Shown here one piece after another: positions 1,101 to 62,099 of a DNA stretch of 64,000 nucleotides. Each line of letters starts with the position of its first letter. The stretch's first letter is position 1. Position numbers and translations under genes: made by a program. The notes under the pieces were generated by a model. The model worked only from the letters and a program-made list of their open reading frames with translations, made no database searches and was not told the DNA's origin. Origin of the DNA: Nonlabens marinus S1-08 (GTDB lineage: Bacteria; Bacteroidota; Bacteroidia; Flavobacteriales; Flavobacteriaceae); the NCBI RefSeq assembly GCF_000831385.1, contig NZ_AP014548.1, forward strand, positions 2,347,779 through 2,411,778. The letters are read 5' to 3'.

Positions 1101-1973
1101 TTATTCCTCCTCGTCTGGAAATGGTAAGTCGTATATGAGTTTTTCAAGCGTGATTTCTTCTTTAGAAATTCCCACCGCTTGAAACTGTTTGTTAATTTTT
1201 GCAACGGTTTTTGCTTTCAGTTGTTGGTCTGTAAATTCAGTTCGTAGCAACCATTGTTGAACATCTCCTACCTGCAAATCGTAATGTGAAGCAATGGTTC
1301 GGTCGATACTTGGAATGTGTTTGAAATCAAGTGAGTAGGTGTTTATTATTTGAATCATTTTAATCAATGCTTCTTCCTTCTCAGCAATACAGTTATCCGT
1401 TGCAGCGATCACAAAACTAGGCCATGGAGTAGCAATGGTTTCTAGCCTTTTAAATATCCCTTGATCCACATAAGGCTGTGTCATATAGCGTTCCCATAGG
1501 AACAATTGCGCTTCTCCAGCACTTAGGGATTTTACAGCACCATCTAACGTATTTACCAACTCAAACTTTAAAGTTTTTGGGTTCCAGTCGTGCCTTCTTG
1601 CGAGAAGGTAGCTCATCAAATGAGAGCCACTACCATAGCGACTAATGGCAATTACTGGATCAATAAGCTGTGCGGTATCTTCTGCAATTAGACTTGCAGG
1701 CGCATGGACACCCCATAATAAAGGGGATTCAACATATACCTGCAAGATTTTGGATGGATTTCCAGCAATTATATCCTTGACAATCCCATCAGTTAAAATA
1801 CAGGCTACGTCTAGTTCTCCATCCCTTAAAGATTGGCACATGCGACCGGTACCTTCTGGTATGTCTTGCCACTGTAAGTCGATGTTCGCTTTCGCGAAAG
1901 CGTTATCCTCTAGAGCTAAGTGCCATGGAAGATTGAAGTGTTCAGGAACGCCGCCTATGGTAATGGTTGTCAT
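1101..1973 (-). CDS. Type 2 periplasmic-binding-fold protein (SsuA/NMT1-like), cytoplasmic form
   Basis: A 290-residue protein resembling ABC solute-binding proteins for sulfonates, nitrate or thiamine precursors: an early GGVPEHFNLPW block, then ELDVACILTDG and IAISRYGSGSH typical of this fold. No signal peptide or lipobox is visible and no permease or ATPase gene lies nearby, so it may be a cytosolic sensor or enzyme-like relative rather than a transporter part. Residues 25-29 (AFAKA) are encoded by the dispersed palindrome at 1887-1902. It follows ppk1 by 2 bp and is probably cotranscribed with it. The substrate is unknown. Confidence 0.7.
   Translation of the reverse strand: MTTITIGGVPEHFNLPWHLALEDNAFAKANIDLQWQDIPEGTGRMCQSLRDGELDVACILTDGIVKDIIAGNPSKILQVYVESPLLWGVHAPASLIAEDTAQLIDPVIAISRYGSGSHLMSYLLARRHDWNPKTLKFELVNTLDGAVKSLSAGEAQLFLWERYMTQPYVDQGIFKRLETIATPWPSFVIAATDNCIAEKEEALIKMIQIINTYSLDFKHIPSIDRTIASHYDLQVGDVQQWLLRTEFTDQQLKAKTVAKINKQFQAVGISKEEITLEKLIYDLPFPDEEE
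1887..1902. repeat. Dispersed palindrome CGCTTTCGCGAAAGCG, copy 1 (in CDS)
   Basis: Exact 16-bp copy inside the binding-fold protein gene, read as AFAKA at residues 25-29. Confidence 0.95.
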
Positions 1974-1975
1974 GA

Positions 1976-4030: not shown

Positions 4031-4076
4031 TTGTTTCTGTTGATTTGTTCTTTTAGTTCAATAGTCAGTCCGCTAT

Positions 4077-5349: not shown

Positions 5350-5382
5350 AAGATAAAGATACCTTAAAAGATGTGAGGGAAT

Positions 5383-6615: not shown

Positions 6616-6631
6616 CGCTTTCGCGAAAGCG
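6616..6631. repeat. Dispersed palindrome, copy 2 (intergenic)
   Basis: Exact core; the symmetry extends to TTCGCTTTCGCGAAAGCGAA at 6614-6633. Lies between gldI and the cyclophilin-FKBP gene, both leftward, 42 bp upstream of the latter's ATG. Confidence 0.95.
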
Positions 6632-10968: not shown

Positions 10969-11498
10969 CTGCTAGCTGCATTAGTTCCAGACACCACATT
11001 CCAACGGCTTTGCACTTTTAAAACTTGTTCTATCACATCACGCACGCAAGCATCGCCACCATTGCGATGGGAGATGTAGTCACAAACCCTTTTCACTTCA
11101 GGAATAGCGTCTTGAGGGCAAGCGGCTAATCCTGCAAATTCCAAGGCGGGAACATCAGGCATATCATCACCCATGTATAGGATTTGCTCTGGTTTTAAGT
11201 CGTGTCTGGTCATGTATTCAGTGAGTTGAACCATTTTATCATGTGCGTTTAAAAAAACATCAGTGATGCCTAAACCTTCTAAACGTGATTTTACACCGTC
11301 GTTTTTTCCACCGGTGATGATGCAAACTAAATAACCTTGATTGAGCGCCGTTTTTAGAGCGTAACCGTCTTTAGCATTCATAGTACGCAGTAGCTCGCCG
11401 CTTTCTGAGATCAGCAAACGTCCATCTGTTAAGACACCATCGACATCAAAAATAAAGGCTTTGATTTGGCGTAGTAGTTCTTTATAATTTTTTTCCAT
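10965..11498 (-). CDS. kdsC: 3-deoxy-D-manno-octulosonate 8-phosphate phosphatase (KdsC-type HAD)
   Basis: Dephosphorylates KDO-8-phosphate in lipopolysaccharide core synthesis. The 177-residue capless HAD protein carries FIFDVDGVLTDGR (nucleophile Asp18, acid/base Asp20), IITGGKND, and the Mg site YMGDDMPDVPAL, with the C-terminal HRNGGDACVRDVIE tail typical of KdsC. It overlaps the upstream Rossmann gene by 17 bp. The short HAD family has related phosphatases, but the RNGG tail favours KdsC. Confidence 0.88.
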   Translation of the reverse strand: MEKNYKELLRQIKAFIFDVDGVLTDGRLLISESGELLRTMNAKDGYALKTALNQGYLVCIITGGKNDGVKSRLEGLGITDVFLNAHDKMVQLTEYMTRHDLKPEQILYMGDDMPDVPALEFAGLAACPQDAIPEVKRVCDYISHRNGGDACVRDVIEQVLKVQSRWNVVSGTNAASS

Positions 11499-12237
11499 GA
11501 GAATTTTTAATTGAATGAGTAATCGCGCGGTACATCTCGCGATCGCTGTCTATTAATAGTGCTATGTGCTTATTTATCGTGTTTTGATCTCCACGCATAG
11601 CGGGTCCAGTTTGTGCGTTTTTAGGTCCTAACTCTTGTGCTTTTTTCAAGGTTTCGATCATCAACGGTTCTAACAAGTCAGTATCCATAGCCGATTGCTC
11701 TAGTAATTCCGCGGCTTTATGATAACAATGATTGACGAAATTGTTCATATACACAGCCGCAAGATGCAACTGTCGACGCTGGGCAGAGTTGACTTTTTTC
11801 CGCTTTCGCGAAAGCGTGCTCGCCACAAGCTCAAGTTGCTCCATAGTAGAGTCGTTGCTGGCTTCAAGACAAAAGGTAACCTCGCTTAAATCTATAGATC
11901 GACCTTTACTAAAAGTTTGAGGAATGTAAAAAACGCCGTAATCGTCAAACCTCGACAATAAGTTTACATCAACACTTCCACTGGTGTGTACTACAGTGGC
12001 TTGTGATTTTGATAAACCATCGGAAACTAGTTGTATTTTATCATCAGGAACCGCTAATACGACCAAATCACATAAAGGAATTGATCCCACAAATAATGGG
12101 GCTTTGATGTCATTTATCTTACGGTTACTATCATTGCTATAGCCCACAACTTGCACGTTATCGCTGTGAGATTTTTCCATCGCTTGACACAACTGTGTTC
12201 CTAAATTACCTGTACCGATAAAAAATACCTTGATCAT
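11482..12237 (-). CDS. Rossmann-fold / DUF2520 domain protein
   Basis: 251 residues starting at ATG 12237. An N-terminal NAD(P)-binding fold (FFIGTGNLGTQL) resembles F420/P5C reductase-type enzymes and is followed by a DUF2520 helical domain (QRRQLHLAAVYMNNFVNHCY, GPAMRGD). Related proteins are described only as putative oxidoreductases; the substrate is unknown. The palindrome at 11801-11816 encodes LSRK near residue 142, close to the domain boundary. First gene of the leftward operon that continues through kdsC and maf. Confidence 0.85.
   Translation of the reverse strand: MIKVFFIGTGNLGTQLCQAMEKSHSDNVQVVGYSNDSNRKINDIKAPLFVGSIPLCDLVVLAVPDDKIQLVSDGLSKSQATVVHTSGSVDVNLLSRFDDYGVFYIPQTFSKGRSIDLSEVTFCLEASNDSTMEQLELVASTLSRKRKKVNSAQRRQLHLAAVYMNNFVNHCYHKAAELLEQSAMDTDLLEPLMIETLKKAQELGPKNAQTGPAMRGDQNTINKHIALLIDSDREMYRAITHSIKNSHGKKL
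11801..11816. repeat. Dispersed palindrome, copy 3 (in CDS)
   Basis: Exact core inside the Rossmann/DUF2520 gene, read as LSRK at about residue 142. Confidence 0.95.
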
Positions 12238-12283
12238 AGCGTAAAAATACACCCTAACAACCGACTCACAAACTATGGCTGTG

Positions 12284-15712: not shown

Positions 15713-15728
15713 CGCTTTCGCGAAAGCG
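15713..15728. repeat. Dispersed palindrome, copy 4 (intergenic)
   Basis: Exact core 4 bp after the ccsBA stop, in the convergent gap before the TPR gene. No T tract follows. Confidence 0.95.
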
Positions 15729-19907: not shown

Positions 19908-19923
19908 CGCTTTCGCGAAAGCG
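19908..19923. repeat. Dispersed palindrome, copy 5 (intergenic, divergent genes)
   Basis: Exact core between the divergent RsmB-like and BNR lipoprotein genes. Because neither gene ends here, this copy cannot be a terminator. Confidence 0.95.
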
Positions 19924-21269: not shown

Positions 21270-22223
21270 TTACTTGACAGAATTTAAAATCTCGTTCACT
21301 GCAGTCACATAGTTGCGAGAACCCCCAGCTTTTTTAATCTTCTTCATGGTTTTTTGAGGGTTGTCAAACTGCTCTGCAAAATAGCCCCAAAACCCCTGCA
21401 TTTTCATTTTTATAGGAGTAGGCCCTTGCAAGAAGGCATCATAATCTGCATATATGGTGTCGTGAAATTCCCTAAATCGTTCCCAGCGGTCTGCGGGATA
21501 TGCTGAAAGATTATTTTGAATCATATATGGCAACCACGGGTCTGCAATCAAGCCTCTACCTATCATAAAATGATCTATAGAGGGGAAGCGATCTTGGCGT
21601 TCTTTAAAAATGCTGACGCTTGTGATATCACCATTATAGTAAAGCTTTTGCTTCGCTCGATCCACGCATTTTTGAAATGCCTCTAGATCGACACCGCCTT
21701 TATACAATTGTTTTCCTGTGCGTGCATGAATCGCTATACTCTTAAGTGGATATTTTTCAAGTGTTTCGAAAGTTTCCAAAATATCGCCCGCATGTTCGTA
21801 ACCCATGCGCATTTTCATGGAAACTACAACATCAGTTTCTGCATGAACTCGTTCCAGTATATGATCAATTTGCTCATGATTGCATATGAGTCCAGAGCCC
21901 ATACCGCGCTTAGTCACCATAGGGTAGGGACAACCTAGATTCCAGTTTAATTCCTTATATCCTAAGGACCTGATGTAGTTCGCAGCGAGTAGAAACTCTT
22001 CTGCATCTGCAGTCATGACTTGTGGGATCAATTCTGGCACTGTATTATTCTCAGGCTCTAAATCTCGTTGATAGGAAGATTTGATTTCTAATTTCCCATT
22101 GAACCGTATGTAAGGCGCGTAAAACGTATCAATACCACCAAAAAATTTATGAAACGCATTACGGAATCTAAAGTCGGTAAAACCTTGTAGAGGTGAGGAT
22201 AGAAGAGTAAAGGGTTTGGACAT
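21270..22223 (-). CDS. dus: tRNA-dihydrouridine synthase
   Basis: Reduces uridine to dihydrouridine in tRNA D-loops with FMN. The 317-residue TIM barrel has SPLQGFTDFRFRNAF, the active-site ELNWNLGCPYP (Cys98), MKMRMGYE, IAIHARTGKQLY and MIGRGLIADPWL (FMN phosphate site). Sequence is closest to the DusC-like bacterial branch by general look, but the subtype is not certain. The ATG overlaps the stop of the upstream solute-binding gene by 1 nt (TGATG), implying coupled translation. Confidence 0.92.
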   Translation of the reverse strand: MSKPFTLLSSPLQGFTDFRFRNAFHKFFGGIDTFYAPYIRFNGKLEIKSSYQRDLEPENNTVPELIPQVMTADAEEFLLAANYIRSLGYKELNWNLGCPYPMVTKRGMGSGLICNHEQIDHILERVHAETDVVVSMKMRMGYEHAGDILETFETLEKYPLKSIAIHARTGKQLYKGGVDLEAFQKCVDRAKQKLYYNGDITSVSIFKERQDRFPSIDHFMIGRGLIADPWLPYMIQNNLSAYPADRWERFREFHDTIYADYDAFLQGPTPIKMKMQGFWGYFAEQFDNPQKTMKKIKKAGGSRNYVTAVNEILNSVK

Positions 22224-23833
22224 CAATTGGTTTTATAAACTCGGGTTAGGTCCAGAATATTGATCCCATTAGTTTCAAGTCCGTGAACATTTTTACTAAT
22301 AAATCTAACACTTTGATCATAGTACAATGGCACAATTGCAGCCTTGTCTATAATCATAGAATCCATTTTTATATAGAGAGCTTCTCGTTCTTTAGGGTCA
22401 GGATTAGTTAAAGCGTTTTCATAGTACGCATCAAATTGTGGATCTGAAAAATGCGTGTAATTGGGCCCGTTAGGTGAAAAGTTTTTAGAATAAAACAGAG
22501 ATAAGTAATTTTCTGCGTCTGGATAGTCTGCAATCCAACTGGAGCGGAAAACGTCCAATTGACCAGCACTTCGCGCTTGCCTTAAGGTGGAAGGTGGCAT
22601 TACTTCAACCTCCACTTGAATACCTACTTTCTCTAATTCTTTTTGAATGTATTCACACAGGTCCAGATAGTTTGCGTTTGTACTTATCGTAATTTGTGGG
22701 TTTGGGTTACCAGATTCGCTCACATATTCAGAAACTAATTGTCTGGCTTTTGTAGGATCATACTCGTAGCCTTGAACCTTGCCACCTGCAGGTAGTCCAG
22801 CAGGGATAAACCCGCTGTTTGCGGGAGTTCCTATATTATTGCGCAAATACTTGATCATTTGCTTGCGATCAAAACCTAGATTGATAGCCTTGCGTATTTT
22901 TTCACTTTGTAGTTCTGGCGTGTTGCTATCTAATTGTAATCCTAAATATTCAGTATTCAGGAACGGTGCCTTGATCATTTGAACGCGAGTTGCATAGGCA
23001 GGTTTCAATTCGCCTTGTGTTGTCAGCAATTCATCCTTATAACTGGGATCGAGAGCGTTTATAAAATCTAAATTCCCTTGTGCAAATTCTAAAAATTCTG
23101 ATTGTTTATCATTTTTGAAAGTGATAGCTACGGCTTCTAAATAGGGAAGGGCTTTACCTTCATCGTCCACCTCATGATATAAATCATTTCTACGCAATAC
23201 CAATTTTACGTTTTCCTCCCAACGCTTCATGTAGAAAGGTCCCGTGCCTATGGGGTTGGACCGCTGATCGTAATCTGCATCTAAGCGTTCAGGTCTAGGA
23301 ATAACAGAGCAGTATTTCATGGTTAATAAACCCAAAAAAGCAGGGAAGGGGTTTTTGAGCTTAATGATTAACTCATTTTCACTTACTACGGAAATGCTAT
23401 CCACGTTACTCATGATCCAAGACCCAGGAGATGCCACTGTAGGATCGGTCAATCGTTCCAGAGAGTATTTTACATCAGCTGCAGAAACTTCCAATGCACT
23501 TGTAGCGTTTTCCGCTTTCGCGAAAGCGATATTCTCATGAAAATAGAGACTATCTTTAAGTTCGAAGTGATATAGAAGTCCATCCTCGCTGACGTGCCAA
23601 TTCTCGGCCAAATCAGGCACTACCTCCAGATTCTGATCTAGTTTTACCAATCCATTGTAGATAAGGTTACAAGCCCAAATATTGCGCTGGTCTTTAGAGA
23701 ACGCAGGATCCAGACTGGTAATGTTTGCATGTTCATTATAACGGAAGACCGTAGTTTCATCAATCGCCTCACCAGAATCAGCACAGCGCACTACAATTAG
23801 TGCTAATAATAAGAGAAGAAAACCCTTTTTCAT
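22223..23833 (-). CDS. Family-5 ABC solute-binding lipoprotein (peptide/oligopeptide type)
   Basis: 536 residues from ATG 23833, with lipobox VVRCADS. It has the family-5 extracellular solute-binding fold: TSLDPAFSKD, LIYNGLVKLD, PDLAENWHVSEDGLLYHF, SNPIGTGPFYMKRW and WIADYPDAENYLSLFYS. No permease or ATPase gene is near, so partners must be elsewhere. Residues about 103-107 (AFAKA) come from a palindrome copy. The start is fixed by the signal peptide and a TATCTTTG box 5 nt upstream; earlier in-frame codons do not encode a lipoprotein signal. Confidence 0.88.
   Translation of the reverse strand: MKKGFLLLLLALIVVRCADSGEAIDETTVFRYNEHANITSLDPAFSKDQRNIWACNLIYNGLVKLDQNLEVVPDLAENWHVSEDGLLYHFELKDSLYFHENIAFAKAENATSALEVSAADVKYSLERLTDPTVASPGSWIMSNVDSISVVSENELIIKLKNPFPAFLGLLTMKYCSVIPRPERLDADYDQRSNPIGTGPFYMKRWEENVKLVLRRNDLYHEVDDEGKALPYLEAVAITFKNDKQSEFLEFAQGNLDFINALDPSYKDELLTTQGELKPAYATRVQMIKAPFLNTEYLGLQLDSNTPELQSEKIRKAINLGFDRKQMIKYLRNNIGTPANSGFIPAGLPAGGKVQGYEYDPTKARQLVSEYVSESGNPNPQITISTNANYLDLCEYIQKELEKVGIQVEVEVMPPSTLRQARSAGQLDVFRSSWIADYPDAENYLSLFYSKNFSPNGPNYTHFSDPQFDAYYENALTNPDPKEREALYIKMDSMIIDKAAIVPLYYDQSVRFISKNVHGLETNGINILDLTRVYKTN
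23513..23528. repeat. Dispersed palindrome, copy 6 (in CDS)
   Basis: Exact core inside the solute-binding lipoprotein gene, read as AFAKA at about residues 103-107, in a surface-type stretch between HENI and ENATS. Confidence 0.95.
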
Positions 23834-23838
23834 GGTGG

Positions 23839-23846
23839 CAAAGATA
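23839..23846 (-). promoter_or_regulatory. -7 promoter box TATCTTTG for the solute-binding lipoprotein
   Basis: Exact TAnnTTTG box 5 nt before the ATG at 23833; near-leaderless message likely. Confidence 0.55.
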
Positions 23847-23927
23847 CTGGTTTGAGTGAGTAGCGATTTGCTAGTGTGGGAGAATGTTATTAAGTCATTG
23901 AAAGTTTTTTCAGTCTTTAAATGAAGG

Positions 23928-23935
23928 TATCTTTG
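23928..23935 (+). promoter_or_regulatory. -7 promoter box TATCTTTG for mtaB
   Basis: Exact TAnnTTTG box 20 nt before the mtaB ATG, in the gap shared with the divergent lipoprotein gene. Confidence 0.55.
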
Positions 23936-23955
23936 CAGTCTGGTAAAATAGGAAC

Positions 23956-25281
23956 ATGAACGCAGTCGCAGACAAGAAATCGGTCGCATTTTATACCTTA
24001 GGTTGTAAGCTTAATTTTAGCGAGACTTCTACTATTGCTCGTGATTTTGATAAGCAAGGTTTCGAACGTAAGGAGTTTGAAGAAGCTGCTGATATTTATG
24101 TCATCAATACCTGTAGCGTAACGGAGAATGCAGACAAACGTTTTAAGTCCATAGTGAAAAAGGCTCAAAAACAAAATAAAGATGCGTTTACCATTGCGGT
24201 AGGTTGTTATGCGCAATTGAAACCAGAAGAACTAGCGGCTGTTGACGGTGTCGATTTGGTTTTAGGGGCAACAGAGAAATTCAAGATCACAGATTATATC
24301 CACCAACTTTCAAAAGATGAGCCAGCGCAAATCCACTCTTGTGAGATTGATGAGGCAGACTTTTATGTGGGAAGCTATTCGATAGGTGATCGCACCAGGG
24401 CGTTTTTAAAAGTTCAAGATGGGTGTGATTATAAATGTACGTATTGCACGATACCATTAGCGCGAGGAATCTCTCGCAGCGATACTATGGAAAATGTAAT
24501 CGAAAATGCTCGCGAAATTGCCGCTCAGGACATTAAGGAAATCGTATTGACTGGCGTCAATATAGGGGACTATGGTAAAGGCGAATTTGGAAATAAAAAG
24601 CATGAGCACACCTTTTTAGACCTTGTAACCCAATTAGATCAAGTAGAAGGGATTGAACGACTTCGTATTTCTTCCATTGAACCAAATTTATTGAAGAATG
24701 AAACCATAGAATTGGTTTCAAAGTCCAGAGCTTTTGTACCTCATTTTCACATACCGTTACAGTCAGGAAGCAATGAGTTGCTGGGTAAAATGAAGCGTCG
24801 CTATAAGCGTGAACTGTATGTCGATCGAGTAAAAAAAATCAAGGAACTAATGCCCGATTGCTGCATAGGCGTTGACGTGATCGTCGGTTTTCCTGGCGAG
24901 ACAGACGATCACTTCATGGATACCTATAAGTTCCTAAGCGATCTTGATATTTCATATTTGCACGTATTTACCTATTCTGAACGCGACGATACAGAGGCTG
25001 CGGTAATGGAAGGAGTTGTTCCTATGAATGTGCGCAAGAAACGCTCTAAAATGCTGCGCGGACTCTCGGTTAAAAAACGTCGTGCATTCTATGAAAGCCA
25101 ACTAGGCAAAACAAAAACAGTCCTTTGGGAAGCTGAAAACAAGGAAGGCTTTATTCAAGGTTTCACAGAGAATTATGTCAAAGTAAAAACCTATTACAAT
25201 CCAGAACTTGTCAATCATTTGCAGCCGGTACAATTGTTAGAGATCGATGAAGATGGTACCGTACGCGTGGATATTTTATAG
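23956..25281 (+). CDS. mtaB: tRNA t6A37 methylthiotransferase MtaB
   Basis: Radical SAM enzyme that thiomethylates N6-threonylcarbamoyladenosine 37 in tRNA. The 441-residue protein has an N-terminal UPF0004 domain with three cysteines for the auxiliary cluster (TLGCKLN, NTCSVTENADK, VGCYAQ), the radical SAM motif CDYKCTYC (Cys157, 161, 164), HIPLQSGSN and a C-terminal TRAM-like part. The NTCSVTENADKRF block separates MtaB from MiaB and RimO. A palindrome begins at the last base of its stop codon. Confidence 0.94.
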   Translation: MNAVADKKSVAFYTLGCKLNFSETSTIARDFDKQGFERKEFEEAADIYVINTCSVTENADKRFKSIVKKAQKQNKDAFTIAVGCYAQLKPEELAAVDGVDLVLGATEKFKITDYIHQLSKDEPAQIHSCEIDEADFYVGSYSIGDRTRAFLKVQDGCDYKCTYCTIPLARGISRSDTMENVIENAREIAAQDIKEIVLTGVNIGDYGKGEFGNKKHEHTFLDLVTQLDQVEGIERLRISSIEPNLLKNETIELVSKSRAFVPHFHIPLQSGSNELLGKMKRRYKRELYVDRVKKIKELMPDCCIGVDVIVGFPGETDDHFMDTYKFLSDLDISYLHVFTYSERDDTEAAVMEGVVPMNVRKKRSKMLRGLSVKKRRAFYESQLGKTKTVLWEAENKEGFIQGFTENYVKVKTYYNPELVNHLQPVQLLEIDEDGTVRVDIL

Positions 25282-25283: not shown

Positions 25284-25299
25284 CGCTTTCGCGAAAGCG
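25284..25299. repeat. Dispersed palindrome, copy 7 (intergenic)
   Basis: Exact core; the symmetry extends to GTTCGC...GCGAAC over 25281-25302, starting on the last base of the mtaB stop. Confidence 0.95.
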
Positions 25300-28887: not shown

Positions 28888-28925
28888 AACTTAATTCAAG
28901 GTTAAAATTTATACTTTGCAAACCT

Positions 28926-28933
28926 TATATTTG
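28926..28933 (+). promoter_or_regulatory. -7 promoter box TATATTTG for aroC
   Basis: Exact TAnnTTTG box 6 nt before the aroC ATG, divergent from the TPR-TonB-C promoter. Confidence 0.5.
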
Positions 28934-28939
28934 CTTCCT

Positions 28940-31467: not shown

Positions 31468-31483
31468 CGCTTTCGCGAAAGCG
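31468..31483. repeat. Dispersed palindrome, copy 9 (intergenic)
   Basis: Exact core in the 195-bp gap between the symporter and the ATP-grasp operon, about 100 bp before the ATG at 31583. Confidence 0.95.
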
Positions 31484-35955: not shown

Positions 35956-35971
35956 CGCTTTCGCGAAAGCG
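35956..35971. repeat. Dispersed palindrome, copy 10 (intergenic)
   Basis: Exact core, extended to TTCGC...GCGAA at 35954-35973, between the thioredoxin-like gene and the PhnA-like gene. Confidence 0.95.
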
Positions 35972-41243: not shown

Positions 41244-41259
41244 CGCTTTCGCGAAAGCG
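41244..41259. repeat. Dispersed palindrome, copy 11 (intergenic)
   Basis: Exact core 15 bp after the phoH stop, upstream of purC. Confidence 0.95.
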
Positions 41260-45508: not shown

Positions 45509-45521
45509 TGAAAAGTAGTTC

Positions 45522-45537
45522 GCTTTCGCGAAAGCGA
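45522..45537. repeat. Dispersed palindrome, copy 12 (intergenic)
   Basis: Exact core 13 bp after the proA terminator, in the convergent gap. The nearby true terminator argues against terminator duty for the palindrome. Confidence 0.95.
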
Positions 45538-47465: not shown

Positions 47466-47481
47466 CGCTTTCGCGAAAGCG
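47466..47481. repeat. Dispersed palindrome, copy 13 (intergenic)
   Basis: Exact core, extended to 47464-47483 with flanking TT and AA, ending against the MFS gene stop codon, between two leftward transporter genes. Confidence 0.95.
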
Positions 47482-50310: not shown

Positions 50311-50335
50311 GAACGCTTTTTGGCAGTTTTTGGTT

Positions 50336-51154
50336 ATGAATAAAAGAGTATTATTTGTTATTGTTTCGGTTTTTGTTTTCGCTTTCGCGGAAGCGCAAAC
50401 TACACCAACTACACTACCAACTCCAGGTGATACGGTTAAAACGGCTTCACCTGACTATTACTATATAGATGGAGACAGCGTCAGCGCTATAGAGTTGGAT
50501 GAAGTTCTACTAATTCAAGATCTTAAATTCACCAGTCGCTATGAGCGCATACGTTACCTAATTTTACAGCGTAAAGTGAAGCGTGTCTGGCCTTATGCTA
50601 AACTTGCCGCAGAGCGACTGACGGAACTCGATGAGCGTCTGGCCAGTATTCCCGATGCTCGCGGCCAGCGTAAGTATGCTAAAATGGTAGAAGATTACAT
50701 CGAGGATGAATTTACTGCGGAGCTTAAGAAACTCACACGTACAGAAGGTCAAATATTGATTAAGTTGATCCATCGTCAAACTGGGGATACTGCTTATGAG
50801 CTCATACGCCGTTTGCGCAGTGGATGGAGTGCTTTCTGGTTCAATAATACTGCTAGTATATTTGATATTTCATTAAAGGAGGAATATCAACCTACTACAA
50901 ATGTTGAGGATTTCTATGTGGAGGATATATTACAACAACAATTCAAACGAGAAGGTCTTGAACCTCAAGAGTCCGCAATCGAATTTGATTATTTCACTGG
51001 TAGAAATAATTGGAAAGCTTTTCAAAGTAAGTTACCAGAGGACTACGATAAAGTAAAACTGGCAGAGCGAGCTCAGAAAATTGAAGAGTACAAAAAGAAA
51101 AAGCAAAAGAAGGAAGCGAAAAAGGCAAAACGTGAGCGTCGCAGGAAAAACTAA
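50336..51154 (+). CDS. DUF4294 secreted protein
   Basis: 272 residues from ATG 50336, signal peptide cleaved after AEA (residue 20). The core YYYIDGDSVSAIELDEVLLI and RRLRSGWSAFWFNNTASIFD is the Bacteroidota DUF4294 family, of unknown function. The C terminus is a basic Lys/Glu-rich tail (about 240-272). A one-base variant of the palindrome encodes AFAEA at 16-20, i.e. the end of the signal peptide. Confidence 0.88.
   Translation: MNKRVLFVIVSVFVFAFAEAQTTPTTLPTPGDTVKTASPDYYYIDGDSVSAIELDEVLLIQDLKFTSRYERIRYLILQRKVKRVWPYAKLAAERLTELDERLASIPDARGQRKYAKMVEDYIEDEFTAELKKLTRTEGQILIKLIHRQTGDTAYELIRRLRSGWSAFWFNNTASIFDISLKEEYQPTTNVEDFYVEDILQQQFKREGLEPQESAIEFDYFTGRNNWKAFQSKLPEDYDKVKLAERAQKIEEYKKKKQKKEAKKAKRERRRKN
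50380..50395. repeat. Dispersed palindrome, variant copy 14 (in CDS)
   Basis: CGCTTTCGCGGAAGCG, one mismatch. Encodes AFAEA at the signal peptidase site of the DUF4294 protein. Confidence 0.85.
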
Positions 51155-51964: not shown

Positions 51965-53194
51965 TTAATTCATTGCCTTAATACGTTGACTTAGACTAGG
52001 ATGCGAATAATTGAAGAAAACGTAGACTGGGTGCGGTGTTAAATTACTTAAGCTACTTTTGGATAAGGTTTTTAATGCTGCGATGAGTGGTGCGCTCTTG
52101 TAAGTTTCTTTTGCGTAATGGTCTGCCTGGTATTCAAACTTTCGCGAAAGCGAACTCATTACAATACCCGTTACCGTAGAAATAGGGGAGTACAACAAAC
52201 CAAATGCAATCAAACCTATATGAAAGGAAGCATTTGATACTCCTAATGCCTGTGCTAATAAGTCGCTATCTACAAATAAAGAAAAGAGCCATAGGGTAAA
52301 ACCAGTGGTGATCGTGCTTGCCAGCAAATTATAAATGATATGCATTTTCTTGTAATGACCCACTTCATGAGCTAGTACTGCAACAATTTCTTCTTCGGTA
52401 AGCTTGTCAATAAGCGTGTCATATAATGTCACTCGCTTCTCACTACCGAAACCGCTGAAATATGCATTTGCTTTTGTAGATCGTTTACTACCATCAATCA
52501 CATAAATTTTTTCTAATTGAAAACCTACGCTTTCTGCATAGGTCTTGATTTTGTTTTTTAATGCTCCTTCCTGCAGTGGGACTTGTTTATTAAATAAGGG
52601 TACAAATAAGCGTGCGTAAAACATATTCATCAACAAGGAAATAACGATAACTAGCATCCACACGTACCACCAAAAGTCATCTCCCGCCCATTGATAGCAT
52701 AAAATAATCACCGTGAGCAGACCGCTGCCTAAAATAGCGGTCAATAGCCAACCTTTAATTTTATCCAGTAGGAATGTTTTTCTCGAAGTTTTATTGAATC
52801 CAAAACGTTCTTCTATTACAAAAGTTCCAAAGTAAGAGAAAGGCAATGAGATCAGTTCTCCAGCGATAGCTATAATCGCAAAAAACACAATGGCTACAAG
52901 GATTTCCCCATCTACCATGGATCTTGCCCACTGGTCAACAATGGCAAAACCGTCTAGGAATAGAAAAATTAGAATTGCTGTAAAAGAAACACTGCTGCTT
53001 ATGAGACCAAATCTGAAATTAGTTTTTTTATACTCTTGTGACCGCTCATATTCTTCTATATCATAAACATCAGAGACCTCGCTGGGTATTGATTTAGAAT
53101 ACCAGGTGAAATTGAGATAGCTCAAACCTCGTTCTAAAACAAAGTCAAAAACTAAAATACCTATAATGATGTAAAATAAGGTCTGCGATTCCAT
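51965..53194 (-). CDS. M48 integral-membrane zinc peptidase (Ste24/HtpX-like)
   Basis: 409 residues with about seven helices. Zinc site VLAHEVGHYKKMH (HExxH about 275-279) with the third ligand Glu in SRKFEYQADHYAKE. The N-terminal peptidase_M48 extension (SWYSKSIPSEVSDVYD-like region) and NAYFSGFGSEKRVTLYDTL match CAAX-type Ste24 proteins. Likely envelope quality control. A palindrome variant encodes LSRK right before the FEYQAD zinc-ligand helix. Confidence 0.92.
   Translation of the reverse strand: MESQTLFYIIIGILVFDFVLERGLSYLNFTWYSKSIPSEVSDVYDIEEYERSQEYKKTNFRFGLISSSVSFTAILIFLFLDGFAIVDQWARSMVDGEILVAIVFFAIIAIAGELISLPFSYFGTFVIEERFGFNKTSRKTFLLDKIKGWLLTAILGSGLLTVIILCYQWAGDDFWWYVWMLVIVISLLMNMFYARLFVPLFNKQVPLQEGALKNKIKTYAESVGFQLEKIYVIDGSKRSTKANAYFSGFGSEKRVTLYDTLIDKLTEEEIVAVLAHEVGHYKKMHIIYNLLASTITTGFTLWLFSLFVDSDLLAQALGVSNASFHIGLIAFGLLYSPISTVTGIVMSSLSRKFEYQADHYAKETYKSAPLIAALKTLSKSSLSNLTPHPVYVFFNYSHPSLSQRIKAMN
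52137..52152. repeat. Dispersed palindrome, variant copy 15 (in CDS)
   Basis: AACTTTCGCGAAAGCG, two end mismatches. Encodes SLSRK at about residue 349 of the M48 peptidase. Confidence 0.75.
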
Positions 53195-53258: not shown

Positions 53259-54074
53259 CTAACCAAATCCACGCTGGCGTTTTGCTTCAAATAAAAGTAC
53301 CGCAGCACTAACGGATACGTTCATGGAATCAATCGCGCCTCCCATGGGTATGATGATATTTGTTTTAGCAGCATCGCGCAAGTGCTTTGACAGTCCTGTA
53401 GCTTCAGTCCCCACAGCAATAGCCGTGGCAGTTGTAAAGTCCATGCGATCGTAGTTTTCACTTGATTGTAGCGTGGCTGCATATAAATTTATGTCGTTGC
53501 TTTTCAAGAATGCAATAGTGTCTGCCGCGCTGGCGATAGCTGTAGGAACGGTAAAAACACAGCCCACGCTGGATCGTATCACATTAGGATTGTATAAGTC
53601 TGAGACTGGATCCACAATGATTACGGCATCGATGTTTGCTGCATCTGCAGTTCGCAATAATGCTCCTATATTTCCAGGTTTTTCAGGTGATTCTGCGATA
53701 AGGATGAGCGGCGCATTAGATAAATGGAGTTGTGAAAGATGTGGGTTTTTCGCTTTCGCGAAAGCGATACAACCTTCAGTCCCACTGCGATAAGCTAATT
53801 TCTCATAGACCTCAGACGATACAGCTATTATATCAGTATTTTCCTCAAGTGTTAATTGCTTTCTTACTTGTGCAGGTTCAAAATCTTCACGACCTAGTAA
53901 AATTTCACTACAGACTAAAACCTGAGTCATTTCAAAATTTCCAGCACGCGCCAGTTGGATCTCGCGTTGACCTTCTATGAGAAATTGGCCTTCTTTTTTA
54001 CGCGTCTTACTCTTGCGTTGAAGCTGTTCCGCATATCTTATCAGGGCATTATGAGGACTGGAAATGTATTTCAA
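53259..54074 (-). CDS. TrmH/SpoU-family RNA 2'-O-methyltransferase
   Basis: 271 residues from TTG 54074. The N-terminal substrate-binding part (KTRKKEGQFLIEGQREIQLA) is followed by the knotted SPOUT domain with the three motifs: ESPEKPGNIGALLRTADAA, VGTEATGLS and IPMGGAIDSMNVSVSAAV. Targets tRNA or 23S rRNA; which one is unclear. The palindrome encodes AFAKA at about 104-108, the linker between the two domains. Confidence 0.93.
   Translation of the reverse strand: MKYISSPHNALIRYAEQLQRKSKTRKKEGQFLIEGQREIQLARAGNFEMTQVLVCSEILLGREDFEPAQVRKQLTLEENTDIIAVSSEVYEKLAYRSGTEGCIAFAKAKNPHLSQLHLSNAPLILIAESPEKPGNIGALLRTADAANIDAVIIVDPVSDLYNPNVIRSSVGCVFTVPTAIASAADTIAFLKSNDINLYAATLQSSENYDRMDFTTATAIAVGTEATGLSKHLRDAAKTNIIIPMGGAIDSMNVSVSAAVLLFEAKRQRGFG
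53751..53766. repeat. Dispersed palindrome, copy 16 (in CDS)
   Basis: Exact core in the SpoU methyltransferase gene, read as AFAKA at the interdomain linker. Confidence 0.95.
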
Positions 54075-55395: not shown

Positions 55396-56643
55396 ATGCA
55401 ACAATCTCCAAAAGTTACCATTATAGGTGCCGGTGTTAGCGGTTTATGCGCAGCCATCGCTCTTAAAAATGCCGGAATCACGGCACAAATAATTGAGGCT
55501 CAATCCAGCCTAGGCGGTAGGGTACAAACTACTTTAAAAGATAATTTAATCTTAGACCATGGATTCCAAGTACTGCTAGACAGCTATCCTGCGGCACAGA
55601 AATACCTTGACCTAAAGACGCTTGACCTTGTCAAATTTGCTCCAGGCGCAATTATCTATAAAGGTGGAAAATCCACTAAAGTTGGGGATCCTACAAGAGA
55701 TGCGAGTTTCCTATGGGCCACTGCATTTTCTAGCATAGGTAGTATTAAGGATAAGTTGAAGATGTTTTCGCTTTCGCGAAAGCTGAAACAAAAAAGTCTG
55801 AAATCCATATTTGAAGCTAAGGAAATAAGCACTTTAGAATACCTAAAGCAAGAAGGTTTTTCAGAAAAAATCATAGAAAACTTTTTCAAACCTTTTTATG
55901 CTGGAATTTTTTTAGAAACCGAATTATCCACCAGCAGCCGAATGTTTGAATTTGTGTTCAAAATGTTTTCAGAGGGCTCTGCTACACTGCCATCAACGGG
56001 AATTGCTGCCATCTCTATACAGTTGGCACGCCAGTTAGAAGAGGGCCAGATTCAATTAAACAGTTCAGCTTCTAGGGTTCAAGGTTCAAAAATTACCATG
56101 GATGATGGAACCCAAGTTCATTCAGATTACACAATCATCGCAGGACAAGCAGATCGATTGATTCCTAATTTACCTATATCTAATTTGCAATGGCATGAAG
56201 TAACAGTGCTCTATTTCAAAACCAATCATAAAGGGTTTGGCAAACCTATTATAGGTTTAGTAGCTGATAAGGGTACTTTAACTAACAACTTCCATTTTCT
56301 ACAAGATCTTTTTAAAGGTCATGATAATGTGATCAGCGTTTCAGTGGTAAAAGCGCATGAGCATGAAGAGCATGAGTTGGCAGCAAGAGTGCGTATGGAG
56401 CTAAAAGAATACTGCCATATAGATTTAGGGGAAGTGATTGAGGTAAAAAAGATCAAAAAAGCCCTCCCTAATTTGAGAAACATCAATTATTGTATGGAAT
56501 CTACAGAAACTCAATTAACGGACCATATTTATCTGGCCGGCGATCATTTAAGTAACGGCTCCCTTAACGCTGCAATGCTTAATGGGGAAGTAGCTGCGCA
56601 AGCCGTGATCGATAAAATCGAAGGGAAAGTTCTGGTCGGGTGA
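55396..56643 (+). CDS. NAD(P)/FAD-dependent oxidoreductase (amine oxidase/carotenoid-type)
   Basis: 415 residues: the FAD motif VTIIGAGVSGLCAAIALKNAG, EAQSSLGGRVQT (amine-oxidase/phytoene-desaturase signature), and the C-terminal YLAGDHLSNGSLNAAMLNGEVAA. It belongs to the flavin amine oxidase superfamily that includes protoporphyrinogen oxidases and desaturases; substrate unknown. A palindrome variant encodes SLSRK at about residues 125-129. Confidence 0.87.
   Translation: MQQSPKVTIIGAGVSGLCAAIALKNAGITAQIIEAQSSLGGRVQTTLKDNLILDHGFQVLLDSYPAAQKYLDLKTLDLVKFAPGAIIYKGGKSTKVGDPTRDASFLWATAFSSIGSIKDKLKMFSLSRKLKQKSLKSIFEAKEISTLEYLKQEGFSEKIIENFFKPFYAGIFLETELSTSSRMFEFVFKMFSEGSATLPSTGIAAISIQLARQLEEGQIQLNSSASRVQGSKITMDDGTQVHSDYTIIAGQADRLIPNLPISNLQWHEVTVLYFKTNHKGFGKPIIGLVADKGTLTNNFHFLQDLFKGHDNVISVSVVKAHEHEEHELAARVRMELKEYCHIDLGEVIEVKKIKKALPNLRNINYCMESTETQLTDHIYLAGDHLSNGSLNAAMLNGEVAAQAVIDKIEGKVLVG
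55769..55784. repeat. Dispersed palindrome, variant copy 17 (in CDS)
   Basis: CGCTTTCGCGAAAGCT, one end mismatch, in the flavin oxidoreductase gene; read as SLSRK. Confidence 0.85.
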
Positions 56644-57937: not shown

Positions 57938-57966
57938 ATCCACTAACATAGACCTTCAAATTGCTT

Positions 57967-59946
57967 ATGTCTTCCTTATCAATCCCAGATTCTATAAAAC
58001 AAGAAACTTCTATTAAGCTATTCAAAGCAATGCTGTTGCCTCGATTAGTGGAAGAAAAGATGTTGATCTTATTGCGCCAAGGTCGCATTTCTAAATGGTT
58101 CTCAGGAATTGGGCAAGAAGCCATCTCTATCGGTGTAACCATGGCCATGGAAGAAGAGGAATACATCCTGCCTATGCATCGCAACTTGGGTGTTTTTACC
58201 TGTAGGAACATACCCTTATGGAAGCTGTTTGCTCAATGGCAAGGAAAAACAGATGGGTTTACTAAAGGACGCGATCGCAGTTTTCATTTTGGGACTCAAG
58301 AGTATAAGATTATAGGAATGATTTCTCATCTAGGTCCCCAACTAGGTGTTGCTGATGGTATTGCACTAGCACAAAAATTGAAAAAGACTAAAAAAGCAAC
58401 TGTGGTTTTCACGGGTGAGGGTGGAACCAGTGAAGGTGATTTTCATGAAGCACTCAATGTTGCTAGTGTCTGGGATTTACCTGTACTTTTTTGCATTGAA
58501 AATAACGGTTATGGACTTAGTACTCCTACAAGCGAGCAGTACCGCTGTAAAGATCTTGCCGACCGTGGCATAGGCTACGGGATAGAATCCCATATTATAG
58601 ATGGAAATAATATTGTAGAAGTCTATTCTAAGATCAAAGACATTTTAGAAGAAATGCGGGAACAACCACGACCCGTATTGGTTGAGTTTAAAACTTTTCG
58701 CCTGCGTGGTCATGAAGAGGCAAGTGGTACTAAATATGTGCCCGATGAACTTACCGCATATTGGGAAGCGAGAGATCCTGTCGAGCTCATGAAACAAGCA
58801 CTTTTGGATAAAAAATGGATATCAGATGAAGATATCGATCGATGGTCGCAGGAATTTAAAAATACCATTAATGAAGATTTAGAGATCGCTTTCGCGAAAG
58901 CGAAACCCACGTCATCAATTGAACAAGAATTGGCTGACGTTTATAAACCAAACACTATTAAATACCCGGCATTACCTGAAGCCACCCAAAACATACGTTT
59001 TGTGGATGCCATTCATGAAGGACTAAAAGGCGCAATGCGCAAGCATGAAGATTTAGTAATTATGGGTCAAGATGTGGCAGAATATGGAGGAGTTTTCAAA
59101 ATAACGGATGGCTTCTTGGAGGAGTTTAGTGCAGACCGTGTGAGAAACACACCTATATGTGAAAGTGCTATTGTAGAAGCTGGCATGGGACTCAGTATCG
59201 CTGGAATGAAAGCGGTAGTAGAGATGCAGTTTGCTGATTTTGTAAGCAGTGGCTTTAACCCCATTGTAAACTATCTCGCAAAATCATATTACCGTTGGGG
59301 ACAGCAAGCTGACGTTGTCATACGCATGCCATGTGGCGCCGGTGTTGGTGCTGGACCTTTCCACTCCCAGACTAACGAGTCCTGGTTCTATACCATTCCG
59401 GGATTGAAAATTGTCTATCCAGCGTTTCCAGAAGATGCTAAAGGTTTACTAGCCGCCGCCATTGACGATCCTAATCCAGTACTGTTTTTTGAACACAAAG
59501 CCTTGTATAGATCTGTATATGGAGAAGTTCCAGTGGAAGATTATGGGATTGAGTTGGGTAAATCACGACTTGTCAGAGAAGGAAAAGATCTTAGCATTAT
59601 AACTTACGGTGCAGGAGTCCATTGGGCATGTCAGTTAAACGATGAACTAATGTTAAGTATTGACATTATCGACTTGCGAACTTTAGTACCCTTAGATAAA
59701 GAATCCATTATAAAAAGCATTCAAAAAACAGGAAAAGCATTGGTGTTGACTGAGGATAATTTGACAGGAAGCATCGCTAGCGATATTGCATCAATGATAG
59801 GTCACGACTGCTTTGAGCAGTTAGACGCACCTGTGGTAAGAGTAGGAAGTATAGATACACCTATACCATTTCACCAAGATTTAGAGCGTAGGTATCTACC
59901 CATAAATAGACTTAGAGATGCGATAAAAAGTTTGCTAGAATATTAG
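57967..59946 (+). CDS. 2-oxoacid dehydrogenase E1, fused alpha and beta subunits
   Basis: 659 residues. The alpha part (about 1-320) binds thiamine diphosphate: GQEAISIGVTMAM, GEGGTSEGDFHEALN (about 148-162), IENNGYGLSTPT. The beta part (about 345-659) starts IRFVDAIHEGLKGAM, with VVEMQFADF and HSQTNESWFYTIPGLK. It is closest to branched-chain (2-oxoisovalerate) dehydrogenases, which supply branched acyl-CoA starters for lipids; pyruvate is not excluded. ATG 57967 is used; TTG 57961 is an alternative. Palindrome copy in the linker. Confidence 0.9.
   Translation: MSSLSIPDSIKQETSIKLFKAMLLPRLVEEKMLILLRQGRISKWFSGIGQEAISIGVTMAMEEEEYILPMHRNLGVFTCRNIPLWKLFAQWQGKTDGFTKGRDRSFHFGTQEYKIIGMISHLGPQLGVADGIALAQKLKKTKKATVVFTGEGGTSEGDFHEALNVASVWDLPVLFCIENNGYGLSTPTSEQYRCKDLADRGIGYGIESHIIDGNNIVEVYSKIKDILEEMREQPRPVLVEFKTFRLRGHEEASGTKYVPDELTAYWEARDPVELMKQALLDKKWISDEDIDRWSQEFKNTINEDLEIAFAKAKPTSSIEQELADVYKPNTIKYPALPEATQNIRFVDAIHEGLKGAMRKHEDLVIMGQDVAEYGGVFKITDGFLEEFSADRVRNTPICESAIVEAGMGLSIAGMKAVVEMQFADFVSSGFNPIVNYLAKSYYRWGQQADVVIRMPCGAGVGAGPFHSQTNESWFYTIPGLKIVYPAFPEDAKGLLAAAIDDPNPVLFFEHKALYRSVYGEVPVEDYGIELGKSRLVREGKDLSIITYGAGVHWACQLNDELMLSIDIIDLRTLVPLDKESIIKSIQKTGKALVLTEDNLTGSIASDIASMIGHDCFEQLDAPVVRVGSIDTPIPFHQDLERRYLPINRLRDAIKSLLEY
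58887..58902. repeat. Dispersed palindrome, copy 18 (in CDS)
   Basis: Exact core in the E1 gene, read as AFAKA at about residues 308-312, near the alpha-beta junction. Confidence 0.95.
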
Positions 59947-60005
59947 CTAGTAAGCACTTAATTTTTTTAAATTTGAAACACCCCTCAAAACTAAATTCTA
60001 CTATT

Positions 60006-60224: not shown

Positions 60225-60258
60225 CTTTTATAATTCTTCAATAGCGACTTTCCGCTTC

Positions 60259-60266
60259 TATCTTTG
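60259..60266 (+). promoter_or_regulatory. -7 promoter box TATCTTTG for the polyketide operon
   Basis: Exact TAnnTTTG box 4 nt before the GTG start at 60271; the message probably starts at the start codon itself. Confidence 0.6.
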
Positions 60267-60270
60267 AGAA

Positions 60271-61386
60271 GTGGATACAAACTTTGATATTATCATAGCA
60301 GGCGGTGGACTTTCTGGTCTTTGGGCTGCCATAGAACTCGGCGGGAGTTATAATGTTTTAATGCTTGATCTTGATACGTACCCCAGACACAAAATGTGTG
60401 GCGAGTATCTTAGCGCAGAAATCTCCGATTTATTACAATCTAAAGGCATCAACCTGAGCAAATTATCGGACGTTCACATTGATAACTTTCAAATTTCATT
60501 ACACAACGGCAAACGCATTTCAAGTAGACTTCCTTTGGGTGGTTATGGTATTTCTAGGTTTTATTTGGATAACGAACTTTTCAAAAAAGCAAGTGAGACT
60601 TGCACTATTAAAAAAGAACGAGTCGTAGAAATTTACGATGATCAAGAAATTCAAAAAGTAATTACAAATGAGTCTTCCTATACCTGTAAACAAGTAATTG
60701 TTGCCACAGGAAAACGCTCTCAACTGGACCGCCAGTTGAAAAGAGAGTTCATGCAAACCAAATCAGAATGGCTAGCGGTGAAGATGCACTATGATTATGA
60801 ATTCCCTACAGATCGCGTAGAGTTACATAATTTTGACGGTGGTTATGCTGGTCTTTCTAAAACCGAATCTGGAGCGGTCAATTTATGTTATCTGACTAGT
60901 TTTAGATCCTTCAAGCGTTACAAGGATGTCGCCGTTTTTCAAGAAAAAGTTTTGAGTGCTAACCCTCACCTCAAAGTTTTTTTTGAGAAAGCAGTTCCCT
61001 TATGGAAAAAGCCGATTACCATATCGCAAATTTCTTTCGGAGCTAAAAAGCAAGGCGCACACCAACTTTTATTTATTGGAGATTGTGCGGGATTAATACA
61101 TCCCTTATGTGGAAACGGTATGGCCATGGCAATACATAGCGCACACATCGCTGTTAGTGCTATTGATGAGTACTTAAACGGACGTCTCAACAGGAAACAG
61201 ATGATCCAGCGATACAATAAAAACTGGCGTTCTACTTTTAGCTCACGCATGCTCATGGGACGCTGCATGCAAGCGATTTTAATACATCCAGGAATTACTC
61301 GAGTAATGTATAATATATTACACCGACTCCCTTTCTTGATGCCTAAGATTATCAAAAAAACCCACGGTAAACCAGTTCAGTCTTGA
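60271..61386 (+). CDS. FAD-dependent oxidoreductase of the geranylgeranyl reductase/UbiH type
   Basis: 371 residues from GTG 60271; the next ATG lies beyond the FAD motif. FAD fold: FDIIIAGGGLSGLWAAIEL, PRHKMCGEYLS, and GDCAGLIHPLCGNGMAMAIHSA (second FAD motif). This fold includes hydroxylases and double-bond reductases. Next to a type III polyketide synthase it is a candidate tailoring hydroxylase or reductase. First gene of a tight operon, directly behind a -7 box; overlaps the methyltransferase gene by 4 bp. Confidence 0.88.
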   Translation: MDTNFDIIIAGGGLSGLWAAIELGGSYNVLMLDLDTYPRHKMCGEYLSAEISDLLQSKGINLSKLSDVHIDNFQISLHNGKRISSRLPLGGYGISRFYLDNELFKKASETCTIKKERVVEIYDDQEIQKVITNESSYTCKQVIVATGKRSQLDRQLKREFMQTKSEWLAVKMHYDYEFPTDRVELHNFDGGYAGLSKTESGAVNLCYLTSFRSFKRYKDVAVFQEKVLSANPHLKVFFEKAVPLWKKPITISQISFGAKKQGAHQLLFIGDCAGLIHPLCGNGMAMAIHSAHIAVSAIDEYLNGRLNRKQMIQRYNKNWRSTFSSRMLMGRCMQAILIHPGITRVMYNILHRLPFLMPKIIKKTHGKPVQS

Positions 61387-62099
61387 GATTTCAGTCCCAT
61401 CGCCGCAATACGGAAGCCGAATGGATGGATGATCCATTACTAGACCCCATAATTTTAGATCAGGCGGTAGCAGACATCAACACGGTAAATCACCTATTAG
61501 GCGGCTACAAATTCACAAAGGCGGCTGTCCAACAAGTAATTAATGAAAACCCACAGGAATCGTATAAGATCATCGATTTTGGCTGTAGTGATGGCGCGAT
61601 GCTCCGGTATTTAGCACAGGAATTACCGCAAGAGCAACTGGATCTATTGGGAGTGGATTTAAGCCCTAGATCGATCCAACAAGCTCAAGAAAAGAGCAGG
61701 GATTTTGAACGTATTCGCTTTCGCGAAAGCGATATTTTCAAAACACCCGTGCAAGATTTGAAGTGTGACATACTTTTAGTGACATTGACACTACATCATT
61801 TTGCGGAAGAAGAGGTATTGAGGTTTCTAAAACGATTTCAAGAAATGGCAGGTATAGCAATCATCATCAATGACTTGCATAGAAGCCCAATTGCCTATAA
61901 CTTCTTTAAAATATTTAGTCCTATTTTTATAAAGAATGAGATTTCCATGCATGATGGATTAATCTCCATTGCCTCTGGTTTTAAGCGATCTGATTTTAAG
62001 CGATACGCAAAACAACTGGAGATCATTAATGACCGATTGACATGGAAGTGGTCGTTCCGTTTTATCTGGATCATACCCACACATGAGCGTAACAATTAA
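61383..62099 (+). CDS. Class I SAM-dependent methyltransferase
   Basis: 238 residues from TTG 61383, overlapping the oxidoreductase stop (TTGA). After an N-terminal helical part (AEWMDDPLLDPIILDQAV, INTVNHLLGG) the SAM fold has motif I IIDFGCSDGAMLRYLA, VDLSPRSIQQAQ and a motif IV-like DILLVTLTLHHF. Probably an O- or C-methyltransferase acting on the polyketide product. The palindrome encodes RFRES (about 113-117) just before the conserved Asp of motif III. Overlaps the PKS gene by 17 bp. Confidence 0.87.
   Translation: MRFQSHRRNTEAEWMDDPLLDPIILDQAVADINTVNHLLGGYKFTKAAVQQVINENPQESYKIIDFGCSDGAMLRYLAQELPQEQLDLLGVDLSPRSIQQAQEKSRDFERIRFRESDIFKTPVQDLKCDILLVTLTLHHFAEEEVLRFLKRFQEMAGIAIIINDLHRSPIAYNFFKIFSPIFIKNEISMHDGLISIASGFKRSDFKRYAKQLEIINDRLTWKWSFRFIWIIPTHERNN
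61716..61731. repeat. Dispersed palindrome, copy 19 (in CDS)
   Basis: Exact core in the methyltransferase gene, read in the third frame as RFRES. Confidence 0.95.

Follow-up and report, generated by a model that had tools for sequence, protein, structure and literature searches.

An evenly spaced, conserved palindrome throughout the Nonlabens chromosome, possibly a binding site for a dimeric chromosome-maintenance protein

The window analysed here, a 64-kb stretch of the Nonlabens marinus S1-08 chromosome, carries a dispersed 16-bp palindrome, CGCTTTCGCGAAAGCG, in 16 exact copies and three further copies with one or two mismatches. When the window was shuffled with its dinucleotides preserved (n = 100), the mean number of matches at up to two mismatches was 0.01 and the largest was one. 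The same 16 exact and three near copies had been listed in the initial annotation, made from the letters of the window, and its coordinates agree with ours save for one copy, which starts at 45521 and not at 45522. The copies are given below with their surroundings (ORF, open reading frame; core, the inner 12 bp of the palindrome). Relatives were aligned locus by locus, and ten of the 19 sites could not be aligned, as the fetched stretches differ in gene order.

1887..1902, exact copy, in an ORF on the minus strand (1101..1973); exact in all five aligned relatives (seven tried).
6616..6631, exact copy, intergenic, between two minus-strand genes; exact in three of six aligned relatives, with the core in a fourth.
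11801..11816, exact copy, in an ORF on the minus strand (11482..12252), 517 bp before the start of a ResB/CcsA gene; core in all six aligned relatives, exact in three.
15713..15728, exact copy, intergenic, between convergent genes; no relative aligned.
19908..19923, exact copy, intergenic, between divergent genes; no relative aligned.
23513..23528, exact copy, in an ORF on the minus strand (22223..23989); no relative aligned.
25284..25299, exact copy, intergenic, between co-directional genes; no relative aligned.
29491..29506, exact copy, in a chorismate synthase gene on the plus strand (28916..30016); no relative aligned.
31468..31483, exact copy, intergenic, between co-directional genes; no relative aligned.
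35956..35971, exact copy, intergenic, between co-directional genes; no relative aligned.
41244..41259, exact copy, intergenic, between co-directional genes; no relative aligned.
45521..45536, exact copy, intergenic, between convergent genes; no relative aligned.
47466..47481, exact copy, intergenic, between co-directional minus-strand genes; no relative aligned.
50380..50395, near copy with one mismatch, in an ORF on the plus strand (50330..51154); exact in the sole aligned relative.
52137..52152, near copy with two mismatches (the two outer left bases), in an ORF on the minus strand (51965..53194); absent in the sole aligned relative.
53751..53766, exact copy, in a SpoU-type methylase gene on the minus strand (53259..54074); exact in one of two aligned relatives.
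55769..55784, near copy with one mismatch (the outermost base), in an ORF on the plus strand (55396..56643); core in all three aligned relatives.
58887..58902, exact copy, in an E1/transketolase-type gene on the plus strand (57961..59946); exact in all three aligned relatives.
61716..61731, exact copy, in an ORF on the plus strand (61383..62099); exact in three of five aligned relatives, with the core in a fourth.

The palindrome is a feature of the whole chromosome. The genome (G000; a single contig of 2,915,920 bases that holds the window at 2,347,779-2,411,778) contains 653 exact 16-mers, or 224 per Mb, and no copy of the control, the same pattern read backwards. Neither a near-expected frequency outside the window nor clustering within it, the outcomes that the initial annotation had named as counting against its proposal, was therefore found. 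The inner 14-mer occurs 728 times and the inner 12-mer 759 times, and the core copies are thus mostly complete. A limited literature search on TTTCGCGAAA and on Nonlabens palindromes, at the level of titles and the openings of abstracts, did not bring up this repeat, and an earlier description is possible.

The copies are spaced more evenly than chance. Among the first 100 exact copies of the chromosome (9-417 kb) the mean gap was 4118 bp, with a coefficient of variation (CV) of 0.61 compared to 0.985 for random placement (P 5e-5), and two of the first 99 gaps were shorter than 1 kb where 21.5 were expected. With the near copies counted in, the 19 sites of the window gave a CV of 0.37 with every gap at least 1.6 kb, and the 27 cores between 1.50 and 1.60 Mb gave a CV of 0.44. 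In a second Nonlabens genome (G004), the first 61 copies listed on one contig had a CV of 0.66 against 0.98. Core counts per 20 kb in 23 sampled bins had a variance-to-mean ratio of 0.36, and over these bins core density was uncorrelated with the distance to the origin (rho 0.03), which speaks against a marker of origin or terminus. The origin was placed at about 0.854 Mb by a pair of parS-like sites, and judged by it the window lies close to the terminus.

These parS-like sites stand at 853,237 and 855,130, and a pair 1.89-1.90 kb apart is kept in all seven palindrome-bearing genomes tested, from both lineages described below; a genome without the palindrome (G069) has a similar pair 2.0 kb apart. 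The palindrome resembles ParB parS sites and Noc-binding sites (NBS) in being a palindrome of 14-16 bp with TTTC/GAAA arms and, potentially, in a domain-scale function, but its arm spacer is 2 and not 4. Sites of the parS and NBS kinds are linked to the origin or few in number. As the parS-like pair is separate, the density of the palindrome uniform and no extra ParB particular to the carriers, a parS/Noc system is disfavoured: one ParB of about 300 aa was found in all 28 genomes compared, long second copies (602-657 aa) in two of seven carriers and three of 21 others, and no ParB-family protein was specific to the carriers. The MatP matS and SlmA sites are likewise chromosome-scale protein binding sites, as the palindrome would be, and they are far fewer and either restricted to the terminus or excluded from it, whereas the sampled density in Nonlabens is uniform.

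Placement relative to genes was determined in 730,002 bases of the genome (25%), comprising the window and further stretches, four of them picked for long gaps, with ORFs called by a simple longest-ORF scheme. Of 173 core copies, 65 fall outside the called ORFs, in 9.4% of the sampled DNA (P 2e-23), and 108 fall inside, 57 of these using an Ala-Phe-Ala-Lys-Ala frame. Intergenic copies lie a median of 29.5 bp from stop codons and 97.5 bp from start codons. Around 63 of them the genes were co-directional in 44 cases (22 in each direction), divergent in 11 and convergent in eight, with no excess in convergent gaps (8/63 against 31/222 in the background). The flanking genes are functionally unrelated (16 window genes scanned), and the regulon of one regulator was rejected on this ground. 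In the tightest pair seen within this genome (L262), the two sites are 260 bp apart at two serine-hydrolase-type (PF00144) genes, with no regulator.

The motif extends beyond the 16 bp. Over 172 copies the 5' flank prefers T at -1 and -2, T or G at -3 and A at -4, and avoids C to about -18, with a weak signal out to about -31; the information amounts to 7.5 bits over -1 to -20, both sides together. The earlier observation that many intergenic copies reach 20 bp is correct as a preference, with T at 0.90 at -2 and 0.83 at -1, mirrored on the right (n = 45 intergenic copies). The same C-poor left flank was seen in 157 copies from relatives and in 19 from a genome of another genus (G250); in nine copies from a further genome of higher G+C content (G234) it was not clear. 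Mismatches gather at the first or last base (32/52). The 14-mer was intact in 168 copies from N. marinus, altered on one side in 16 and pair-compensated in none, and the corresponding numbers in relatives were 155, 14 and none. The 24-nt consensus does fold as a DNA hairpin (-9.3 kcal/mol, z -3.3; the bare 16-mer, z -0.9). However, a stem read as a structure was rejected, as the sequence is kept and not the pairing. No pairwise covariation was seen between the left and right flanks (summed z -1.2; position -1 alone, z 2.8). Given symmetric C-poor flanks without pairing covariation and the lack of compensated stem changes, the motif fits two independent half-site readers, probably a dimer on duplex DNA, rather than a hairpin.

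Sites are retained between species at the level of the DNA. Orthologous DNA was aligned from 21 of 23 Nonlabens genomes; a site was scored as kept if it lay within 8 columns of the aligned position, whereas for control words an in-register match was required, and pairs were counted in both directions among akin relatives, so that the counts are not independent. All 16 bp were kept in 378 of 637 site pairs and the core alone in a further 134. Where flank identity was 60-70%, 142 of 252 pairs were exact over 16 bp and 194 kept the core, compared to 0.5% of control 16-mers and 1.5% of control 12-mers. Where both species encode the same 5-residue peptide and identity is below 75%, the DNA was identical in 366 of 486 site windows (which overlap, several per site); among control windows the share was 3.9% (n = 272,816), and among alanine-rich ones 2.0% (n = 11,410). 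At 75-85% identity the values were 75/114 against 7.5%, and above 85% they were 138/157 against 42%. The constraint therefore acts on the DNA.

A site is kept within 20 bp in 541 of 625 mapped pairs (at most two changes in the 14-mer) and not in 44; in the other 40 the site was lost too close to an end to judge. Losses take the form of base changes such as CGCTTCCGCGAAAGCG, of unrelated sequence or of partial gaps; none of the non-matching pairs shows a clean absence of 16 bp. Inside the site, a few alignments of intergenic DNA contain gaps reaching 11 columns or inserts reaching 24, and single mobile cases may occur. Upstream of the ResB/CcsA gene, the site lies at 513-556 bp in 15 of 21 Nonlabens genomes and at 174-181 bp instead in five, one of which (G015) adds another at 723 bp; the remaining genome (G006) has neither. 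One genome (G009; L074, L163-L165) has relatively many one-sided variants, again such as CGCTTCCGCGAAAGCG, which may point to an emerging dialect or to decay setting in. In another (G005), a hairpin-like insert stands opposite L081:5344, where G007 has the palindrome.

All 23 Nonlabens genomes in a set of 59 carry the palindrome, in 180-737 exact copies each, and 35 of the other 36 have none; the exception (G033) has four, all on one contig. In the family, 104 of 397 genomes contain one core or more: four Nonlabens (586-759 copies), G250 (917), G234 (445) and 98 others with 1-21, against 0-3 copies of a mirror control. Across 395 genomes of the phylum, the 14-mer was present in 22, with more than six copies in N. 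marinus alone. G234 and G250 thus represent two genera outside Nonlabens with high core counts. A ResB/CcsA protein tree (1127 aa) groups them with full support, separate from Nonlabens, and because its backbone is weak, a single origin of the palindrome in both lineages may still be the case. Of 20 stretches fetched from other genera, 14 have no palindrome of 10 bp or longer that occurs more than twice; four of the remaining six (L051, L057, L059, L060) show a G+C of 0.00 and are presumably masked, and two, from G033, were picked for holding the site. A hairpin-forming sequence of the GCCTGCC...GGCAGGC type was also seen in the family (L136:11446).

In genomes with low counts, some of the copies are clustered, as transfer would leave them. 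All 19 cores of G120 lie on a single contig, at 32-110 kb, and 20 of 21 in G330 lie in two stretches (C4, 9-41 kb; C5, 178-240 kb); in G188, G086 and G360 they are scattered, and the positions listed for G095 cover part of its copies. Two cores separated by exactly 933 bp are seen in each of G145, G122, G259, G131, G120, G330 and G204. The stretch of about 80 kb in G120 (C3:32,332-110,017; L276-L280) has genes for AcrB-type efflux, outer-membrane efflux, a multicopper oxidase, Fic and Zot-like proteins, and appears to have been acquired from a lineage that bears the palindrome.

In the N. marinus chromosome (first 417 kb, by exact copies; 1.20-1.34 Mb, by cores) nine gaps reach about 10 kb or exceed it, and gene content was scanned in five. 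One is a conjugative element (L269-L270; C1:1,282,027-1,315,046) with genes for TraG, RteC, a tyrosine integrase and efflux, free of cores over 33 kb. Another is a type I restriction/AAA-ATPase stretch, two adjoining ones hold a multicopper oxidase, a metal ATPase and a long ParB, and the fifth spans a ribosomal-protein operon. No Rfam match was found in the window or in five stretches with long gaps, and no tRNA in these five stretches.

The exact 16-mer is also present in IMG/VR, where 41 stretches contain it; from four of them, ten proteins were scanned per library. Six exact copies were counted in the fetched parts of a Mu-like contig with genes for portal, terminase and sheath, three on a contig that encodes portal and major head proteins, and four on one with integrase and tape-measure-like genes. 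Over 66 viral copies, many from near-identical contigs, C stands at 0.12 and G at 0.23 at -3 to -12. Several single copies in G+C-rich viral DNA have other flanks and look like chance matches or sites of other hosts. Nonlabens phage P12024S has no palindrome in 35,000 of its 35,700 bases, and no integrase is annotated among its 57 listed features; TCGCGA is also missing from these 35,000 bases (L292), where we estimate some 3-4 from base composition. From these few phages, it would appear that DNA resident in the cell acquires the site and a phage can manage without it.

Our tentative interpretation, which we hold as possible and somewhat short of an even chance, is that the palindrome is an evenly spaced binding site for a putative dimeric chromosome-maintenance protein. 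From the comparisons above we infer a reader that is a homodimeric, sequence-specific DNA-binding protein, which would bind the palindrome chromosome-wide at sites about 4 kb apart, each subunit reading one half-site (CGCTTTCG and about 18 bp of C-poor flank). Its role would lie in general maintenance and not in the regulation of genes, most likely in the organisation of the nucleoid or of domains, or in DNA topology. What would be selected is the presence of a site within a few kb, and a lost site could be replaced by a nearby point mutation. With the same reserve, the array may represent a new kind of chromosomal landmark: palindromes of 14-16 bp with wide symmetric flanks, set about every 4 kb along the whole chromosome, with selected spacing and a dedicated dimeric reader, in Nonlabens and one other lineage of Flavobacteriaceae.

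Several points weigh against this interpretation. The reader is hypothetical and none was pinpointed in this analysis. One region, 1.20-1.34 Mb (24 cores, with the conjugative element inside), gave a CV of 1.17, the sole result opposing regularity, and a gap of 16 kb crosses the ribosomal-protein operon. P12024S and the 33-kb conjugative element are free of sites, and DNA can therefore live in these cells without one. Local replacement of lost sites is not general, as another site was found within 1.5 kb at 59% of 44 lost places compared to 75% of random positions; the median distance to the nearest site was 384 bp at lost places and 937 bp at random ones, the near cases coming from two places only. 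Finally, even spacing and conservation could also arise from a palindromic signal for uptake or repair.

The main rival is a DNA uptake signal, in which palindrome-bearing DNA is preferentially taken up and recombined so that exact copies accumulate by molecular drive. This would suit the hundreds of near-perfect copies within and between genes, the intergenic excess (65/173), the even spacing, the conservation at orthologous places and the fact that site-free stretches are in mobile or foreign-looking DNA, but we consider it rather unlikely. The uptake signal sequences (USS) of Pasteurellaceae are asymmetric. Both these and the DNA uptake sequences (DUS) of Neisseriaceae resemble the palindrome in their many near-identical, genome-wide copies kept within a clade, but a DUS, in the available part of PMC3630211, is an asymmetric 10-12-mer tied to the minor pilin ComP, whereas the Nonlabens site is palindromic and a PilB/PilT-type ATPase (T2SSE) scored above the cut-off in one of seven palindrome genomes (G004) and not in N. 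marinus. This lowers pilus-type uptake, although ComP itself was not searched, and a literature search on natural transformation in Nonlabens turned up nothing. Since the pilus-linked machinery is missing in six of seven carriers, the palindrome is not filed as an uptake sequence.

The initial annotation had likened the palindrome to a highly iterated palindrome (HIP) such as HIP1 of cyanobacteria, and had proposed a chromosome-wide binding site, a methylation target or a spreading sequence. The likeness and the binding site are borne out to the extent that the site is genome-wide and genus-wide, is held at orthologous places between species and is more evenly spaced than chance, both of the latter having been put forward as checks. 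As to methylation, the site may be a target, although the carriers tested have no C5 methylase that all of them share. As a mechanism, however, a HIP-type site is improbable. In Elhai's model of HIP1 an orphan methyltransferase and methylation-directed repair would act together, the sites marking strands and being ratcheted until they are within reach of any mismatch. Such saturation by distance would yield even spacing, and deviations at the end bases, as in 32 of 52 here, are reported by Elhai for HIP1 as well (available part of PMC4390886). The same part of that source gives HIP1 (GCGATCGC) as an 8-bp palindrome linked to methylases, with 300-2700 copies per Mb in most cyanobacteria. The Nonlabens palindrome differs in its length of 16 bp, to which each side adds a flank of about 18 bp, in its density of 224 exact copies per Mb and in lacking a shared C5 methylase; a C5 methylase common to all carriers is disfavoured, none being found in seven of 16 palindrome genomes (N6 and N4 methylases were not tested). 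The constraint over 14-16 bp and flanks would also go beyond the need of a methylase. Although the great chromosome-wide excess is shared with HIP1 and the alternate HIPs, the HIP1 sequence does not occur within the 16-mer and the methylase link was examined for the C5 class, so that the palindrome is not filed as a HIP and the comparison is apt as a likeness only.

A bidirectional recombination or repair signal resembling Chi is more doubtful still; it would stop a helicase-nuclease from either side, with G/T-rich 5' DNA favouring RecA loading. On each strand the 5' flank is poor in C and rich in G and T, evenly placed sites would limit degradation, and the density is similar to that of Chi in E. 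coli. Known Chi sites, however, are short, asymmetric and read as single strands, and the flank preference here is position-specific. Equally doubtful is a strong site for a topoisomerase (gyrase or topo IV) that would set topological domains, the long symmetric flank reflecting wrapping of DNA. The symmetric signal, weak to about 31 bp, the even spacing and the presence of the palindrome on the Mu-like phage contig would agree with this, but known gyrase sites have a weak consensus compared to this nearly invariant 14-mer, and the gaps between convergent genes hold no excess (8/63 against 31/222).

A structural or mobile palindrome, be it a terminator, an RNA or DNA hairpin or a spreading element like the repetitive extragenic palindromes (REP/BIME), is already largely refuted and highly improbable: although the consensus folds (z -3.3) and, as with REP/BIME, dispersed copies lie near gene ends (29.5 against 97.5 bp), 108 of 173 are within called ORFs, the DNA after the stem is A-rich and not T-rich (which speaks against a terminator), no stem change is compensated, so that sequence rather than stem is kept, and the RAYT-type (Y1) transposase is missing in four of seven carriers (G000, G004, G022, G234; present in G002, G015, G250), which speaks against REP/RAYT. 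Of the earlier idea of a spreading sequence, the mobile unit is therefore not upheld, there being no clean 16-bp absence in aligned pairs and no such transposase in N. marinus; the palindrome may have spread by uptake or conversion.

With the pilus ATPase, the Y1 transposase, an extra ParB and a C5 methylase all disfavoured, what remains is a general maintenance function that would require a site within a few kb, as the proposed dimeric reader would provide. With a conserved, even mark along the whole chromosome of a small bacterial genome, it can be put directly to the test whether bacteria measure out the domains of their chromosomes. If the palindrome were instead an uptake signal, it would imply a receptor independent of the type IV pilus in Bacteroidota and, to our knowledge, would be the first palindromic signal of its kind. 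Either answer bears on what HIP1 does.

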